This document shows positions 9,683-20,342 of a stretch of 22,345 nucleotides of DNA, piece by piece (position 1 is the stretch's first letter; each line of letters starts with the position of its first letter). Position numbers and translations under genes: made by a program. The DNA comes from a candidate division LCP-89 bacterium. Lineage in GTDB: Bacteria > Electryoneota > B3-LCP. The notes beneath the pieces were generated by a model. That model had not been told where the DNA came from. It did no database searches and was given only the letters and a program-made list of their open reading frames with translations. The stretch spans positions 1 through 22,345 of the forward strand of contig JALGZU010000008.1 of assembly GCA_025774735.1 (NCBI GenBank). Reading direction: 5' to 3'.

Positions 9683-11848
9683 TTATTTTACAAGCACAAC
9701 CTTCTGTATCTGAACGAAATCTGCGGCTGAAATGCGTGCCAGATAAACTCCCGAACTGAGTCCATTGCGATTGAAGCTAATGCTGTGCAGACCTGCACTG
9801 AGGAAATCGTTCAGCAATGTGCTGACTTTTCTGCCTTGAACGTTGTAAATTTCCAGTTTCACCTGAGCTGGATGAGGCAGCTCGAATTGAACGGTTTGTG
9901 GATTAAATGGATTTTGGAAGGGAGGCGATGATGAGAAGGTTGTCGGCATTTCTGTGTATCGGCGTTTTTCTAAATTTAAGGCATTCGAATGATCAAGGAC
10001 AACGAAGTAGTCGTCCGCGGCCATATAGGAATACTGACCTGAGACGGCCAGCCCGTATGAATCATCGTCCAGGCGGTAATATCCGGTCTCGAACATATTT
10101 GAGGGAACGCGTACATCAACGACACTGAGTCCATGATACCCACCAGCCACATAAACGTAATGGCCGCTTGCTTTAATATCGCATCCCGTTCCTGGTACGT
10201 CAAAATATCCGATTTCTGATGGATTATAGGGATTGGAAACGTCAACTGCATACATCCCTTCGTAGCAAATCGTGATGTAAGCGATATCCCCTGAAACTGC
10301 AACGTCCCGAATTTCATCATTGTAGAAGGTGCCGAGCACATAAGGATTAGCTGGATTTTCAACGTTGAGGATCATCAATCCCTCATTGTCCACTGCTGTA
10401 TAAGCATATTCATCGATAACTTCCGCATGGAGGGTGTAACCCGGCAGGGGCGTTTGACTTGTCACAACAGGATTGTTAACATCTGTAATGTCGACAATCA
10501 AAAGGCCTTCCCACACACAACCAATATAGGCGTAATTATCGACAATTTCGATCTCATCCATATAATTGGTAAAATTGCTTTCGCTAACCACAAAAGGTTC
10601 ATAAGGATTTGAAATATCGATGATATAAAAGACTCCTCCGGCACCAGTCACGAAGCAATAATTGCCTTCTACATATATACCCTTGGCTTGATCAGAAAGG
10701 AGACAATTTGAGATGAAAGTGGCATTGTGTGGTGAACTTACATCAAAAATGCAGAGTCCCATATTGATGTTTGTGACATAAGCGTAATTTCCTGCTACTG
10801 TAACTCCCCAGTGTTTCCCGTACCGACTGAAGTTACCAACGGTAGTAATATTCGAGGGATCTGCAACATCCAGTATCATCAATCCTTGCTCGTAACTCCC
10901 GACGAATGCTAAACCATTTTCAACGGAGATACCGAATGGGCTCGTGACGGCTGAGCTCGTTCCTATCAATGTCGGATTGACGGGATCTGATATATCCAAT
11001 ATTGATAATTGGTTCTCAAACCAGCCTTTTGTGAAATATAAGTTGTTCTCATCAATATAAAGATCGTGTGTATCGTAGTAGGTTATATGATTACTTAGTT
11101 CTTCAATCTGGAAAGGATTGGAGATATCATAAATGAAAATGCCGTAAAAATTAGTGGCAATGCACAGAAGGCTATCGGAAATCTCTGCGCTTATACCGAG
11201 ATATCCTGTAGATAGAGTATCTATCATAAATGGATTAAGGGCGTCCGAAATATCAATGGTATACAACCGACCGCAATACCCGCAGCCACATTCGGCAAAA
11301 GTCAGGTATGCATAATTATCCGACAGCACAATGGCATCAGCGCCGTACTGGCCATAGCCTGTAAAAATACTCGCAGTTTCTATGGGATTGGCGGGATCCG
11401 AGGTGTCGATTATCCTGAAACCTTCCAGTCCATCGGCAAGGTAAACGTAATCATCCCTCACTTCTAGACCATATGTGTAGCCGGGGGTGTCATAGAATCC
11501 CAGTTCAATTGGATTGGTTGGATCAGAGACATCAATGATTCTCAGTCCACCACCACCATCTGCGAGGTAGGCGAGATCACCGGATATTACAATCTCTTCT
11601 ACCGCACCAGGAGTGTTAAAGGATCCGGCTTCTGCTGGATATTGAGGATTTGAGATATTAAAGATGTGCAAACCCTCACTACCAGCCGATGTATACATAT
11701 AATCACCGGAGACGGCATTTTCATAAAGACAATCCCAGAAAACGACTTCGCTGGTCATGATGACGTTCAGGCTGTCCTGGGAGTTGGCGATATCAGCAGC
11801 CATCGTGAATATGCTGATTACAAGACCAATATGATACAAATTTTTCAT
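9683..11848 (-). CDS. LVIVD-repeat beta-propeller protein with T9SS sorting domain
   Basis: Secreted protein of 721 residues. Residues 1-24 are a signal peptide ending NSQ. From about residue 45 to 640 I count fourteen repeats of roughly 40-45 residues built as D-x-A-Y-L/V...G-L-x-I-I-D-V-S-D-P-x-N-P-x-x-x-G, the LVIVD repeat known to form beta-propeller blades; fourteen would suit two seven-bladed propellers. The C-terminal 80 residues are a T9SS sorting domain (NPFNPQTVQFELP, YNVQGRKV, LSSGVYLARI, ending KVVLVK). LVIVD proteins are surface-exposed and probably adhesive or ligand-binding; the ligand is not known. The gene is visibly AT-richer than its neighbours (18 G+C of 60 at 11041-11100), hinting at acquisition or different selection. 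Own promoter at 11918-11946. Confidence 0.88.
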   Translation of the reverse strand: MKNLYHIGLVISIFTMAADIANSQDSLNVIMTSEVVFWDCLYENAVSGDYMYTSAGSEGLHIFNISNPQYPAEAGSFNTPGAVEEIVISGDLAYLADGGGGLRIIDVSDPTNPIELGFYDTPGYTYGLEVRDDYVYLADGLEGFRIIDTSDPANPIETASIFTGYGQYGADAIVLSDNYAYLTFAECGCGYCGRLYTIDISDALNPFMIDTLSTGYLGISAEISDSLLCIATNFYGIFIYDISNPFQIEELSNHITYYDTHDLYIDENNLYFTKGWFENQLSILDISDPVNPTLIGTSSAVTSPFGISVENGLAFVGSYEQGLMILDVADPSNITTVGNFSRYGKHWGVTVAGNYAYVTNINMGLCIFDVSSPHNATFISNCLLSDQAKGIYVEGNYCFVTGAGGVFYIIDISNPYEPFVVSESNFTNYMDEIEIVDNYAYIGCVWEGLLIVDITDVNNPVVTSQTPLPGYTLHAEVIDEYAYTAVDNEGLMILNVENPANPYVLGTFYNDEIRDVAVSGDIAYITICYEGMYAVDVSNPYNPSEIGYFDVPGTGCDIKASGHYVYVAGGYHGLSVVDVRVPSNMFETGYYRLDDDSYGLAVSGQYSYMAADDYFVVLDHSNALNLEKRRYTEMPTTFSSSPPFQNPFNPQTVQFELPHPAQVKLEIYNVQGRKVSTLLNDFLSAGLHSISFNRNGLSSGVYLARISAADFVQIQKVVLVK

Positions 11849-14374: not shown

Positions 14375-14411
14375 TGCAAAAATAATACCATGCCCGCTAC
14401 AAATTTTTGCA
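14375..14411. promoter_or_regulatory. Inverted repeat in the divergent intergenic region
   Basis: TGCAAAAAT (14375-14383) and its exact reverse complement ATTTTTGCA (14403-14411), 19 bases apart, between the divergent genes starting at 14213 and 14485 and 20 bases upstream of the -35 box at 14431. It could be a two-half-site operator. The rest of 14214-14484 shows no gene and no convincing minus-strand promoter. Confidence 0.4.
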
Positions 14412-14430
14412 TCGCGCGTGGATAAAACAC

Positions 14431-14459
14431 TTGACTGAAGGGAAAAGAATTCGTACATT
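14431..14459 (+). promoter_or_regulatory. Sigma70-type promoter of the sialidase-like gene
   Basis: TTGACT (14431-14436), 17-base spacer, TACATT (14454-14459), 25 bases before the start codon at 14485. Transcription start near 14466 leaves just enough room for the AAGGAGG ribosome binding site at 14473-14479. Confidence 0.65.
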
Positions 14460-14484
14460 AAAAAATATAGCTAAGGAGGCCGTC

Positions 14485-16155
14485 ATGAAAAGGATACTTA
14501 GTTTCGCTATTTGTTTAATCTGTTTCTCAAGCCTCGCCTACTCAGAAGTCACTCCAGTCGTCTATGAACAACCGCTGGCTTTGCGAGCCGTTCCCTCAAG
14601 CGTTTCCTCTCTGCAACCGGTCTCAACGCGTGGCCTTGACGATTGGCTCAACATGCGCATCAATTCCGACACCACCGGCCAGGTCCAAAATGAACAGCAG
14701 GTCGTCGTCAATCCGATGAATCCGGATAATGTAGTCGCCGTCTGGCGTGATTTTCGACTGGGATACCGCCGCGTCGGGGTGGGGTGGTCGTTCGACGGCG
14801 GCTATACCTGGGAAGACGACCTCTTCGTCGAACCGACCTTCCCCCGTCAGAGTGATCCCGGTTTGACCTGGCATACTTCGGGGACGATCTACGCCGTCGT
14901 CCTCTCCTTCGATTGGAGCAGCGGAGACGGCCTCTTCGTGGCGTCCAGTATCAACGGTGGGGTAACCTGGGGATCCTGGGTCCCCGCGGTGATTAACTAT
15001 TCTTCCGACTTGTTCGAAGATAAAGAACTGATGGCTTGTGACCGCTCAGGCAGTCAGTATGATGGCAATCTCTACATCGCCTGGGCTCGCTTTGAATATA
15101 CACCTTCACAACAAACCACCATCACCCTCGTAAGGTCCACCGATGGCGGTTCAAGCTGGGAACCATCGGTTGCCGTCAGCGATGAGTCAGGAGTGCAATG
15201 GCCTGTTCCGGCAGTGGGTTCTGATGGTGAAGTTTACATCGGTTGGGTGAAATACTATGATGACGAAATCCGCTTTGATAGGTCATTTGATGGTGGAATG
15301 ACCTGGGGAGATGATGTTACCGTGCAGTCCACCAGTTTTGCCAACACCTCTATCGACCCGGAATTGTCCATCTTTGCCTTTCCGGCCATGGATGTGGATA
15401 TCACTGGAGGGCCAAACCGGGGGACCATCTATATCGCTTATTCCGATGATTGGTACGGTGATACCGATATTTTCCTGACGAAGTCCACCAACAGCGGGAT
15501 TGACTGGACGACACCGGTCCGGATCAATGATGACCATATCGGCAACGGAGCTGACCAGTTTCACCCCTGGCTGGTCTGTGACGAGAACGGCGATCTTCAC
15601 CTGACCTTCTATGATCGTAGAACCGACCTTCCCCGCAATATTCTTATGGACCTGTACTACTCCTATTCCAGCGACGCAGGAAGTACCTGGTCGCCCAATG
15701 AGAGGATCACGGATGTCTCATCAAATCCTGCCCGGGATTCGCTGGATTCGGGCTTGATCGGTGAGTACAATGGTCTTGCCGTACGTAACGGCGTCATCCA
15801 CCCCGTTTGGACCGATACCCGAAACGGTCATCAGGATACCTATACCGCCGTGTGGGAAGCCCCCGTCCCGGTGAGACCCCCGGAAGCCGGTACGACCATC
15901 GGCTGGATCGTGGATGCGTCACCAAATCCCTTCAACGATGAACTCCGAATCAAGTTCAACCTGCATAGACCGGGTTCGGTCGAACTGACAGTCTTCGATA
16001 CCCGGGGCAGAAAGGCTGAGACATTGCTGCAGAGTGATCTTCCGCCCGGTGAATACGTACGAATATGGAAACCGAACTGTCCGTCCGGGATATACTTCTT
16101 GCGCGCATCTGGCCCGGATGGAATCCAGGTAAGGAAGATTTTCTACCTTAAATAG
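14485..16155 (+). CDS. Asp-box (BNR repeat) sialidase-like protein with T9SS sorting domain
   Basis: Secreted protein of 556 residues. The start at 14485 is chosen over an in-frame upstream codon at 14407 because of the AAGGAGG ribosome binding site and because the signal peptide (MKRILSFAICLICFSSLAYS) begins there; the promoter also lies after 14407. Six Asp-box motifs S-x-D/N-x-G-x-x-W begin at residues 102, 155, 218, 267, 334 and 395, marking blades of a sialidase-type six-bladed propeller. YDRRTDLP near 375 resembles the conserved segment of exo-sialidase-like proteins. I cannot confirm the arginine triad and catalytic Tyr/Glu of true sialidases, so catalysis is unproven; many Asp-box proteins only bind glycans. 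The C-terminus is a T9SS sorting domain: SPNPFNDELRIKFNL, FDTRGRK, CPSGIYFLRA, KIFYLK. Confidence 0.87.
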   Translation: MKRILSFAICLICFSSLAYSEVTPVVYEQPLALRAVPSSVSSLQPVSTRGLDDWLNMRINSDTTGQVQNEQQVVVNPMNPDNVVAVWRDFRLGYRRVGVGWSFDGGYTWEDDLFVEPTFPRQSDPGLTWHTSGTIYAVVLSFDWSSGDGLFVASSINGGVTWGSWVPAVINYSSDLFEDKELMACDRSGSQYDGNLYIAWARFEYTPSQQTTITLVRSTDGGSSWEPSVAVSDESGVQWPVPAVGSDGEVYIGWVKYYDDEIRFDRSFDGGMTWGDDVTVQSTSFANTSIDPELSIFAFPAMDVDITGGPNRGTIYIAYSDDWYGDTDIFLTKSTNSGIDWTTPVRINDDHIGNGADQFHPWLVCDENGDLHLTFYDRRTDLPRNILMDLYYSYSSDAGSTWSPNERITDVSSNPARDSLDSGLIGEYNGLAVRNGVIHPVWTDTRNGHQDTYTAVWEAPVPVRPPEAGTTIGWIVDASPNPFNDELRIKFNLHRPGSVELTVFDTRGRKAETLLQSDLPPGEYVRIWKPNCPSGIYFLRASGPDGIQVRKIFYLK

Positions 16156-16217: not shown

Positions 16218-16625
16218 CTAACTGAGATTTTGCAGGAAGCGTAGAGTTTCCAGCTTTGATTCAAAATCCAGATTCAGGATCCGGTTAAGCAGTTCGAGAT
16301 CGAGGTTTGAAAGGCGGAGGTTCGCTCCCTCCCGCCTGGTCGGCATGGCTTTGGCACTTTCGCCAGAGAGAGTGTCTTCAACCGGCCCTGCGGCGCTGGC
16401 GGCATCTCCGCGCATGCTGAAGAACTCCTCCCGGCCTAATTTGAAGCCGTTGAGGATCTTCTCCAGGGTTTTCCCACGACCCTTACGCTTGCCGGACTCC
16501 AGTTGGCTGATGGTTAAAGCGCTGGTGTTGGCCAACTCGGCCAACCTGGCTTGTGAGAATCCCTTTTTTGCCCGCCAGTATTTTAAAGCTTCCGCCATGT
16601 CGATGTTTGAACGTTGCCTGGGCAT
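16218..16625 (-). CDS. XRE-family helix-turn-helix regulator
   Basis: Small DNA-binding protein of 135 residues. Residues about 10-66 form an XRE/Cro-type HTH: ALKYWRAKKGFSQARLAELANTSALTISQLESGKRKG, then LEKILNGFKLGREEFF. A flexible linker of about 35 residues follows. Residues 106-135 form a short helical module, DLELLNRILNLD..K.....FL, that recurs in the adjacent upstream gene. Start ATG 16625 has an AAAGGAG ribosome binding site. The gene lies 27 bases downstream of the 16653-17156 gene and probably shares its promoter at 17314-17342. It likely represses or activates transcription as a dimer; target unknown. There is no toxin gene, phage gene or peptidase domain nearby, so an antitoxin or phage-repressor role is not supported. 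Confidence 0.8.
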   Translation of the reverse strand: MPRQRSNIDMAEALKYWRAKKGFSQARLAELANTSALTISQLESGKRKGRGKTLEKILNGFKLGREEFFSMRGDAASAAGPVEDTLSGESAKAMPTRREGANLRLSNLDLELLNRILNLDFESKLETLRFLQNLS

Positions 16626-16652
16626 TATTGCTCCTTTATTTAATGTATGTAT

Positions 16653-17156
16653 CTAATCCAACTGTGAAAGTGCTTTTAAAATGGTTTTGCGGCGCAGGAA
16701 ATCCCGTACCTTTATCTTATTGGATTCGTCCAATTCCAGGATCTGATGAATGAGCTCCAGATCAATTGGGATTAGATCGATGCGCCCGGTATAAACTGTT
16801 GATCTATGGGAAATTATTTTTAGCTTGGGTTTTCTTGTGCGTGTTTTCCGTATCGTGACCCCTTCTTCCGCCGCTTCAGAACGCGCGGGCTTGGGAGGAG
16901 GGGTATGGAGGCGTTTAAGGGTATCCTCGTTGAGTTTCTCCCACTCCTCGGCTTGGGGCATGAAGGGATTCAGTTCCTGGAATGGAGGACCTTCGTTGTA
17001 TCCGTTCTGAATCAATTCTACCATTGTACTCGATAGTGGTGAACGGAATTCCCCGATAACGCTATAGCCCTTTTCCTCCAGAAATGAGATCAGGGATGCG
17101 CTCGAGATGCGGAGTATCCTCGATACATCACAAACGCGAACCGGCTTCGTTTTCAT
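16653..17156 (-). CDS. Small protein with IF2-N/MerR-like winged helix and shared C-terminal module
   Basis: Protein of 167 residues. Residues 5-50 (VRVCDVSRILRISSASLISFLEEKGYSVIG, then SPLSS and MVELI) look like the small winged-helix fold of translation factor IF-2 N-terminal domains and MerR-type DNA binders. A proline- and charge-rich linker follows (PPPKP, then a basic patch RKTRTRKPKLK near 103-113). Residues 130-155 repeat the module of the downstream XRE protein: DLELIHQILELD at 132-143, K147, FL at 153-154, with the same spacing from D to FL (21 residues). I infer a DNA- or RNA-binding partner that may form mixed oligomers with the XRE protein. No clear ribosome binding site precedes ATG 17156. 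Function otherwise unknown. Confidence 0.7.
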   Translation of the reverse strand: MKTKPVRVCDVSRILRISSASLISFLEEKGYSVIGEFRSPLSSTMVELIQNGYNEGPPFQELNPFMPQAEEWEKLNEDTLKRLHTPPPKPARSEAAEEGVTIRKTRTRKPKLKIISHRSTVYTGRIDLIPIDLELIHQILELDESNKIKVRDFLRRKTILKALSQLD

Positions 17157-17313: not shown

Positions 17314-17342
17314 AATATAATATTTATTAAGTTGGTTTGCAA
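17314..17342 (-). promoter_or_regulatory. Sigma70-type promoter of the two-regulator operon
   Basis: Minus-strand TTGCAA (17342-17337), 17-base spacer, TATATT (17319-17314). It gives a leader of about 150 bases before the start at 17156, long enough for a control element, though none was recognised there. Confidence 0.6.
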
Positions 17343-17379: not shown

Positions 17380-17718
17380 ATGGATATAATGATGAGTGAA
17401 CGGTTAATGATCACGGTCGTTACCGGTTTGCTGGTGGTTGGTGCCTGTTATTATGTATGGCGGGAGAGGTTTACAAACTGGTGGGGATTGTGCATCAGTA
17501 CGTTCTCTCTGACGGGGTGCCTGCTGGTCTATTACCACGGCTGGATTCACCATCCCTCGCATGGAATGAGCATAGCGATTCTACCACTGGCGACCTGGTG
17601 GCTCTCATGGAGGCGGGAAACGACAGGAAAGCCCGCCTGGACTGTCCCGAAATTTGTCCTGATTCAGGTCGCCTTCAGCGTGCTCTACGTGATCGTTTCT
17701 CAGTGGCAGGAAATTTAG
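17380..17718 (+). CDS. Small hypothetical membrane protein
   Basis: Protein of up to 112 residues with about three or four hydrophobic segments: MITVVTGLLVVGACYYVW, the ISTFSLTGCLLVYY stretch, AILPLATWWLSW and FVLIQVAFSVLYVIV. No family recognised. The start is uncertain: ATG codons lie at 17380, 17389, 17392 and 17407, none with a ribosome binding site, and a perfect TATAAT at 17385-17390 overlaps the first ones. If that is the -10 box, translation probably begins at 17407 or on a leaderless message. Its stop codon interlocks with the stop of the opposing patatin gene (bases 17715-17718 TTAG serve both). Inner-membrane location inferred; function unknown. Confidence 0.6.
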   Translation: MDIMMSERLMITVVTGLLVVGACYYVWRERFTNWWGLCISTFSLTGCLLVYYHGWIHHPSHGMSIAILPLATWWLSWRRETTGKPAWTVPKFVLIQVAFSVLYVIVSQWQEI

Positions 17719-20342
17719 AAGTGATGGCCAATGTTGAAGTAAAAGATATCCCTGTCTTTGACGTTTTTTTGAGCGAAGAGGTAGCCGTAAGCAATTGAGA
17801 TCGGCCCCACGACCGTATCCAGTGAGAATTTCATACCGATACTCTGTTTGAGATCGCCGGAATTGACGTCCGCTTCCAGATCTTCCCAGATATTCCCGAA
17901 ATCGCCCAGGAAGGAGATGTAGGCATCGGCGAGGATCCGGCTCAACAGGTCCTCTCGAAGCTCGATTCGCAGGCTGACGAGTTGACGTCCCGATATCTCA
18001 TCCTGATGCAATCCCATGAAGGATCGCTCACCCCCCAGCCGGAACCATTCCGAAAACGGGGTTGCCTGGTCGCATATCCCGCCCCGGAGTGTGCCCAGGA
18101 CGGTGATTCGGTGTGTGATGGGCAGGGCCCGAGTGAGCTCCAGGTGGATGCGGTGAAATGATAGATCGCCACCCAGATTGGACGGCGCACTTTCCAGGAG
18201 GAAGTCGTAGCGCAATCCCGTGCTGGGGAATTCGCTGCGATCATGAGTGTCGAACTCGGAACGCAGGAATATACGCCTGAGATCGAGTTCGTATGGGCTG
18301 GTGATGTGATCGGTGCGGATACGTTCACCGCGAACGCCGATCAGTAACCGGCCCCAGGTGCGGAACTGCATTCCCAGGTGAGCCGTTGCCCCCATCCGGT
18401 CGAAATGATAGAGGCCTGTGGAATTACCTTCTGAATCGTAATACTCGTATTCCGTCCGGTTCGAGATGAGGGAACACGACCCTTCCATGTACGTTTTTAA
18501 AATAGCCAGATGGCGGTAAATCAGCTCATATTTCTCTTCGAACTCGGCATATTTTAGCCAGGCTGTCAAGCTGCCACCTGATACAGGTAGCGATCCATAG
18601 GAAAACTCCACCAAACCCCGGCCGTTGCGTTCGGAATCTACGCCCGCCCCGATCCGGAGGCGTGACCTTGGTTTCTCCCGAACTTTGAAGGTTAGCGTAT
18701 CATTGACGAGGGTTGAACGGACGAGAGTGAACAGATCGCTGCCGTGTAACTCTTCAAGGCTGGTTGTCAGGTCGGGCAGACTCAACGGTTCCTCGCTCTT
18801 TACCAGCACATCCCGAAGGATGCGACCGGCGCTTTGGATTTTATTGCCTTCGACGTTGAGTGCTCGTGCTGTACCTTCATCAATCTGGATAGTGAGATTT
18901 CCGTCGTCGTCGATCAGGAACGCTTCGAACCTCGCCAGGGGATTACCCTGGCTGCGGTAGGCTCGCAGGACGGCCTCCATGTCGAGGTCGTAAAGTCTGA
19001 TCCCCGGTGGCTGCCCTGATTTTGATGTGGCGTTGTTATACAGAATTTCTGGTGATATCTGCGCAGTTCCGGTGAAAGTGAGCGAATTGATTGCCGGATT
19101 GCCTTCCAATGCGTATATTAGTGTATCACCTGAAATGATGCCCTTTGCCGAATGAATATTTTCGATCTTTTCCAGGCGTCGGAGGTCGAGTAGAACAGCA
19201 CCGCGGGTGGGCAACGCCCCGGTTTGTATGCTCGCGGCTGCCCCTAACTCTGTTTCGATCTCTCCTGGGATGTTATCGCTGCGGATAACAACATGTTTGA
19301 CCGCTATCAAGGTAGTATCATTCGCGCCTGCTATTCGGTTGAGCTGCGCTTTGATTGCAGGAACGTTCTTCAAACCCGCCTGGTAACCCATCTCGATGAA
19401 TAGCTTCGGCTTCACGAACGAGAACGTGGTCAGGGAATCGGCCAGAGGCACGATGGCTATGTCAGCGCGATCGAGTAGGTCTCTGTTGCGGTCCTCGGCC
19501 ATCAAGCCGGTGACCTGATTGGCGATGACCCAGGGTTGATGAGGTGGAGGCCCCAGGACAGGCGGCATAGTGACATCGACAGCGATGACAAAATCACCGA
19601 GTTCCGAGGCCGCCAGAACCGGGATGTTTTCGGCGACACCTCCATCGATTAAGAGGCTCTCTTCGTACTGGACGGGAGCGACTAAAAGTGGCAGTGCCAT
19701 CGAGGCGAAGATCGCCTCGGCGAGGTCCCCGCGCCGGAAGAGTAACCGGTCGCCCGTCTTCAGATCCGTGGCCACGGCGATGAAGGGGATTTTGAGGTGG
19801 TCGAAGTCGGGTTCACCCCGGTAGGGCGCCCGGTATATTTTATCGATCAGATAGTTCGAAAGGGTCTGTCCGGTGACCAGGGCTGAAGGGATGTAGGGTT
19901 GAGTGCCTTCGAACCGCAGTTCAAGAAGGTATTGAGATTGGGTACTCTTACTGGAAAGCGGCAGGCTTTTTCTTCGAGGAGCGTCGAGAAAAATGCTGCT
20001 CCAATCGATTTCCTGGACCAGAGCCTCCATTTCCGCAACTGTGTACCCTGCGGCGTAGAAGCCGCCGATGATTGATCCGATGCTCGTTCCGGCGATGCCA
20101 TCAATGGGAATCCCGGCTTCCTCGAAGGCTTTAAGGATTCCAATGTGGGCGATGCCGCGAGTGCCCCCACCCGAAAGAGCGAGGATCACACCCGGATCGG
20201 TCTTGATGATTTCCGACGATCCGACCGGTGTTTCTGGTACGCTGGAGCTGACGAGATCCCGTGCGAATGGATCAGGTCCGATTAGCACGATAATCATCAG
20301 CAGCGCGGTGAAAGTATGATTGGCGTTAAGTTGAATTTTCAC
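17715..20342 (-). CDS. Patatin-like phospholipase with C-terminal outer-membrane barrel
   Basis: Protein of 875 residues. A signal sequence (hydrophobic FTALLMIIVLIG at about 11-22) precedes a patatin domain at about 50-330: oxyanion loop GGGTRG (58-63), nucleophile elbow G-T-S87-I-G, and catalytic D233-G-G, so the Ser-Asp dyad is complete and lipid acyl hydrolase activity is expected. Residues about 410-590 look like POTRA-type repeats (EGNPAINSLTFTG, VEGNKIQSAGRILRDVL). The last 280 are a BamA/Omp85-like barrel: RLRIGAGVDSERNGRG, SEFPSTGLRYDFLLE, FRLGGERSFMGLHQDE, ending IFYFNIGHHF. This layout is that of PlpD-type (type Vd) or FCB patatin-barrel proteins, placing the lipase at the outer membrane. 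Promoter at 20376-20404. RssA-like patatins lack the barrel. Confidence 0.93.
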   Translation of the reverse strand: MKIQLNANHTFTALLMIIVLIGPDPFARDLVSSSVPETPVGSSEIIKTDPGVILALSGGGTRGIAHIGILKAFEEAGIPIDGIAGTSIGSIIGGFYAAGYTVAEMEALVQEIDWSSIFLDAPRRKSLPLSSKSTQSQYLLELRFEGTQPYIPSALVTGQTLSNYLIDKIYRAPYRGEPDFDHLKIPFIAVATDLKTGDRLLFRRGDLAEAIFASMALPLLVAPVQYEESLLIDGGVAENIPVLAASELGDFVIAVDVTMPPVLGPPPHQPWVIANQVTGLMAEDRNRDLLDRADIAIVPLADSLTTFSFVKPKLFIEMGYQAGLKNVPAIKAQLNRIAGANDTTLIAVKHVVIRSDNIPGEIETELGAAASIQTGALPTRGAVLLDLRRLEKIENIHSAKGIISGDTLIYALEGNPAINSLTFTGTAQISPEILYNNATSKSGQPPGIRLYDLDMEAVLRAYRSQGNPLARFEAFLIDDDGNLTIQIDEGTARALNVEGNKIQSAGRILRDVLVKSEEPLSLPDLTTSLEELHGSDLFTLVRSTLVNDTLTFKVREKPRSRLRIGAGVDSERNGRGLVEFSYGSLPVSGGSLTAWLKYAEFEEKYELIYRHLAILKTYMEGSCSLISNRTEYEYYDSEGNSTGLYHFDRMGATAHLGMQFRTWGRLLIGVRGERIRTDHITSPYELDLRRIFLRSEFDTHDRSEFPSTGLRYDFLLESAPSNLGGDLSFHRIHLELTRALPITHRITVLGTLRGGICDQATPFSEWFRLGGERSFMGLHQDEISGRQLVSLRIELREDLLSRILADAYISFLGDFGNIWEDLEADVNSGDLKQSIGMKFSLDTVVGPISIAYGYLFAQKNVKDRDIFYFNIGHHF

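Follow-up and report, generated by a model that had tools for sequence, protein, structure and literature searches.

Two small genes lie side by side on the reverse strand of the window, by which we mean the whole stretch of 22,345 nucleotides that was analysed. The first of these (16653..17156) encodes a 167-residue protein made up of an IF2_N/MerR-like winged helix-turn-helix head (residues 1-57), a conserved helical middle (58-87), a basic linker (88-123) that carries AT-hook-like patches in homologues, and a two-helix tail (124-166, DNA 16659..16787, reverse strand). The second (16218..16625) encodes a 135-residue XRE protein with an HTH_3 head (residues 9-72), a linker that is modelled at low confidence (73-101) and, again, a two-helix tail (102-135, DNA 16221..16322, reverse strand). 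The genes are separated by a gap of 27 nt (16626..16652, reverse strand) with a GGAG ribosome-binding-like site 5' of the XRE ATG, and together they look like one transcription unit, that is, a small operon. A sigma70-like promoter, TTGCAA-N17-TATATT (17314..17342, reverse strand), starts 186 nt before the ATG of the pair; the pattern TTGNNN-N17-TA[AT]ATT, which was derived from these same sequences, occurs at 7 of 7 loci of the near clade (genomes G001-G005 and G015 together with the window), with 0.02 occurrences expected per 300 nt. No operator palindrome common to these seven loci was found upstream. At positions 17380-20342 lie a patatin-Omp85 gene and a 112-aa gene, the latter convergent and with no Pfam match; both are kept beside the pair in the near clade. 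Elsewhere in the window, proteins encoded at 550-1278, 1449-2078, 9683-11848 and 14407-16155 end in FlgD/Por-secretion-like sorting tails (NPFN...GxYxxxL); the Por_Secre_tail match to the last of these is weak and below cut-off, and the other three were judged by eye.

The XRE protein matches HTH_3 (PF01381) above the curated cut-off, with an E value of 6.2e-9, and its conserved tail falls outside every matching model. For the 167-aa protein of the window no family matched and there is no IF2_N (PF04760) hit above the curated cut-off; across its family, which comprises 32 clusters including the window's own, IF2_N matches are seen in 5 of 32 members, all weak (best E 0.0015). The tail gave no accepted match among Pfam or PDB-sequence families. 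When the 32 tails of this family were scanned against Pfam at E<=10, a search in which the HMMER filters drop most very weak matches, six families were hit, by one member each, and the SinI family was not among them. The initial annotation knew of no named domain for the tail, and none was found, a generic domain match being absent in both Pfam and PDB sequences.

That the two tails are homologous is established by profile-profile comparison. Tail against tail, hhalign gives a probability of 95.7 and an E value of 8.6e-9 for the single pair, over 33 ungapped columns with 36 % identity; head against head gives a probability of 0.4, and the two head-to-tail comparisons between the proteins give 0.2 and 1.1. 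The proteins therefore share a homologous module of ∼33 residues, C-terminal in both, and the earlier proposal of a single C-terminal module on neighbouring XRE and IF2-N/MerR-like proteins is confirmed, the heads being without a match to each other. Reciprocal searches were run over 2023 ORFs from 25 stretches, mostly chosen for carrying a tail. A profile built from the tails of the 167-aa family only (hereafter IF2N) returned 31 matches at E<=1, all tail proteins, the weakest at E 0.04: 12 IF2N-type (7 of them the profile's own family or near-clade kin), 18 XRE-headed and 1 headless. It recovers every XRE tail, those of distant genomes at E values down to 4e-8, and matched no unrelated ORF among the 2023 local ones. 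The XRE-tail-only profile picks up 11 of the 12 IF2N-type tails with weak scores (E 6.5e-6 to 0.61), misses the one at locus L001, and has one stray match at E 0.14 in the same set of 2023 ORFs.

Conservation was measured as the mean majority residue. In the XRE family, aligned as the window protein and 52 relatives (53 rows, including one relative, P0084, that ends before the tail), the tail (0.86) is more conserved than the HTH (0.79); in the 167-aa family the head (0.82) exceeds the tail (0.73). The linkers, about 32-36 residues long, are poorly conserved in both proteins (0.41 and 0.46). AlphaFold models place a low-confidence linker ahead of two confident tail helices in either case. For the 167-aa protein (mean pLDDT 79.3, pTM 0.45) these helices span residues 130-140 and 144-166, with blocks 131-160 at pLDDT 90-93, and for the XRE protein (mean pLDDT 69.9, pTM 0.40) 107-117 and 121-133, with blocks 111-130 at pLDDT 91-93, so that in both models two C-terminal helices lie behind an HTH and a linker, as in the SinI/SinR hook. 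The low pTM values would fit domains on flexible linkers; the models are of monomers and oligomeric state is outside their reach.

With RGRP in a basic context, which we take to be the core of the AT-hook motif, strict matches occur in 3 of 32 proteins of the 167-aa family (0.06 expected from shuffled linkers) and matches to a looser pattern, [RK]xR[KR]P, in 16 of 32 (1.9 expected from shuffled linkers). AT-hook-like patches are found in none of the 53 XRE rows. Of 10 distant-clade XRE-type ORFs, 5 contain RGR[PK]; the motif is absent from all 3 distant IF2N-type ORFs and from each of the 4 ORFs belonging to G038 and G039. As motifs, these basic patches argue mildly for DNA as a ligand.

A tail profile constructed from near-clade tails only matches 30 ORFs at E<=0.1 and nothing else; the 30 come from 15 of the 39 phylum genomes. 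A widened profile, built partly from these 30 ORFs, recovers the same 30 at E<=7e-10 in the 39 genomes, with the next match at 0.036, and in 386 relatives of G002, at least 347 of which are outside the 39 phylum genomes, gives no further tail match below E 0.0107. The module, for which a search across FCB genomes had been suggested, was found in one phylum, the 386 relatives adding no match below E 0.01; so far it has been found only in the LCP-89 phylum, read as AABM5/Electryoneota from the LCP-89 label and the available text of PMC9727166 and PMC11382960. Metagenome-assembled genome (MAG) loci with the 167-aa gene and an adjoining XRE gene come from Calditrichaeota DeMMO3_2, LCP-89 B3_LCP, the LacPavin bacterium, Zixiibacteriota SURF_9 and LCP-89 Meg19, and one phylum set, centred on an LCP-89 genome, covers all five named sources. 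At the Meg19 locus the homologue of the 167-aa gene is short of about 17 residues, and a sixth locus, at a contig end of the same MAG, holds the first 31 residues of the 167-aa protein only. The Meg19 IF2N gene is seen at two contig ends (L005 start, L006 end) with overlapping N-termini, probably an assembly break.

Heads are IF2N in 11 of the 30 tail ORFs, XRE in 17 and not visible in 2, so that all 28 ORFs with a visible head are of one or the other type; the G014 protein is assigned to IF2N chiefly because it is 36 % identical to the G007 protein over 144 aa. One headless ORF (G014, C122) runs off its contig start and the other (G010, C56) is a 46-aa remnant. In G014 a tail (L118, 2-355, forward strand) follows tandem 22-residue repeats with KKRGRKPK, which is AT-hook-like, the contig starting inside the gene. 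A 237-aa open frame of G010 (L122, 1984-2694, reverse strand) has two near-identical tandem XRE heads and one tail, an arrangement that fits a two-headed functional unit, imitating a dimer. A protein of G009 (L128, 6774-7925, reverse strand) has an IF2_N-like head akin to those of the G007 and G013 IF2N-tail proteins and ends in an Mrr_N-like domain without a tail, a possible tail swap.

Both head types occur with the tail in 10 of 15 tail genomes (11 if the cut-off G014 head is XRE). IF2N-tail proteins are present in 11 of the 15, accompanied by an XRE-headed tail partner in 10 and by the headless C122 ORF in G014, and in 0 of 11 is a second tail ORF lacking, as expected of a partner or an antagonist. 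XRE-tail proteins occur without an IF2N-tail in 4 of 15 genomes (G006, G009, G010 and G012, MAGs of unstated completeness), so that, unless these MAGs are incomplete, the tail there works without an IF2N partner. On a tree of IF2 comprising 35 genomes (without G010, G016, G033 and G035) the 14 tail genomes are spread over three clades. A single origin of these 14 alone is rejected (p 4.8e-7), and one in which the nested tail-less genomes G008 and G011 are counted in is not (AU p 0.243). Three of the four XRE-only genomes group with two tail-less genomes, and from this clustering the absence of the IF2N-tail may be one loss.

Of the 15 tail genomes, 8 have the two genes side by side, and these represent at least 3 different contexts: the near clade, G038 and G039. 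In the near clade the pair lies in a syntenic chromosomal block comprising a ∼495-aa gene (glycosyltransferase-like by eye), the patatin-Omp85 gene, the 112-aa gene, the pair, a BNR-repeat gene and a ∼710-aa gene, a block that is incomplete at some loci because of contig ends and has a different downstream gene at L003; those loci are therefore not independent. The two genes are again adjacent in G038 and G039, and the flanks (18 and 17 kb) are unlike the near-clade block and each other, among the matches listed. In G007 the IF2N and XRE tail genes are unlinked, each interior to its own contig. The IF2N gene of G013 lies at the end of a contig, and the XRE gene at least 3 kb from either end of another; the IF2N gene of G014 has an interior position on its contig and no adjoining tail gene. 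Among the matches listed, the XRE genes of G007 and G013 follow a Mg-chelatase gene, presumably ComM-like, and precede an AMP-binding gene, and the IF2N genes of G007, G013 and G014 follow an M28 peptidase gene (BLAST orthologues in each case, with Pfam names taken from one locus each). In the 167-aa family, 20 of 32 clusters are read as sharing a contig with an XRE cluster from the equal size of their longest contigs. Co-occurrence of the two genes elsewhere, on which the earlier proposal hinged, thus holds, including in G007, G013 and G014 (head cut off), where they are unlinked.

The reading that we favour, with a probability of roughly 0.6, is that the locus is an operon of two DNA-binding regulators sharing a private oligomerisation plug, the hooks pairing homo- and heteromerically. 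It is the layout shared with SinR/SinI/SlrR that favours both kinds of association. In each protein a flexible linker, which is often basic and in some cases has RGRP patches, would join the head to a two-helix hook at the C-terminus, and an XRE hook would pair either with another XRE hook or with that of the IF2N protein. In this way the IF2N protein would alter binding of the XRE oligomer, either because its head adds a second DNA specificity and so creates a composite operator, as has been proposed for SinR-SlrR, or because it disrupts the homo-oligomers of XRE in the way that SinI acts on SinR; the hetero-complex would in turn regulate transcription. That the IF2N-tail is never alone and the XRE-tail sometimes is fits an IF2N protein that modifies a self-sufficient XRE oligomer. 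A more elaborate version, which we put forward tentatively and at somewhat less than even odds, is a phylum-private code in which one plug on two unrelated heads, one of them IF2-N-domain-like, forms heteromers on composite operators, with the AT-hook-like linkers adding nucleoid binding.

Both tails could instead dock on a third conserved protein, such as RNA polymerase or a nucleoid or membrane anchor, and so bring different heads to one effector. Retention of the tail in the four genomes without a detected IF2N partner, and where the genes are unlinked, speaks for such docking, as do the near-invariant polar residues of the XRE tail (S106, N107, E111, N114, R115 and N118), conserved beyond the hydrophobic core; they exceed the need of a plain dimer core and could mean a third partner. 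However, no third gene travels with the pair across the compared contexts within about 17-20 kb, among the matches listed (an unlinked partner would escape this comparison), and an HTH followed by a two-helix C-terminus is the layout with which SinR self-associates in the available text of PMC3163267; we regard docking as unlikely. A module copied between regulators that only homo-oligomerise, with co-occurrence a matter of operon history and heads that act separately, would account for the XRE-only genomes and for the different mean net charge of helix 2, +3.75 in the IF2N protein vs +0.29 in XRE. It sits poorly with an adjacency that outlasts turnover of the neighbourhood and with the constant company of a second tail ORF, and we likewise consider it unlikely. 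Leucine-rich short helices are common, and the tail might by chance or convergence be a generic amphipathic end as in many XRE regulators, but this is scarcely credible given the tail-to-tail E value, the exact recovery of 30 ORFs from 39 genomes by the near-clade profile, the gap that separates them from everything else in the 386 genomes (E<=7e-10 vs E>=0.0107, with a profile partly built from them) and the lack of an accepted Pfam or PDB-sequence match.

For the most part, bacterial regulators form homo-oligomers within a single family. What we find is unrelated heads with a single plug, kept across clades of one uncultured phylum. If heteromers form, the pair would provide a simple system for studying the origin of combinatorial control in bacteria and a case of an IF2_N-like domain used outside translation; the phylum-private code, if true, would parallel, in bacteria, the combinatorics that shared zippers give to eukaryotic transcription factors. 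In practical terms, the tail profile could name about 30 genes currently hypothetical or merely 'XRE'.

The heads have familiar counterparts. IF2_N (PF04760) is the N-terminal domain of IF2, whereas the IF2_N-like head here belongs to stand-alone proteins of about 165-235 aa with no room for a GTPase. MerR-type and related winged helices (pSK1 Par, RacA, NmlR, CueR, BldC) have 2-12 % identity to the IF2N head, and neither an effector domain nor the MerR dimer helix is evident in the 167-aa protein. With XRE/HTH_3 regulators (PF01381) the head is shared, the conserved C-terminal tail being additional here. The closest likeness is to SinR/SinI/SlrR of Bacillus subtilis: an XRE/HTH_3 head, a linker, a C-terminal helix pair and a homologous hook on a second protein. 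SinI is not known to have a DNA-binding head, and the head of SlrR is of the same type as that of SinR, whereas the second protein here has an unrelated, IF2_N/MerR-like one. In the available text of PMC3163267 SinR is laid out as HTH, linker and two-helical hook, with self-association, and SinI appears as the hook alone. The present pair differs further in its longer linkers (about 32-36 residues), its phylum and its lack of a match to Pfam SinI. That two proteins can share a hook is already known from SinR/SinI; for a hook common to unrelated heads, one of them IF2_N-like, no precedent turned up in a literature search whose scope took in few subscription journals.
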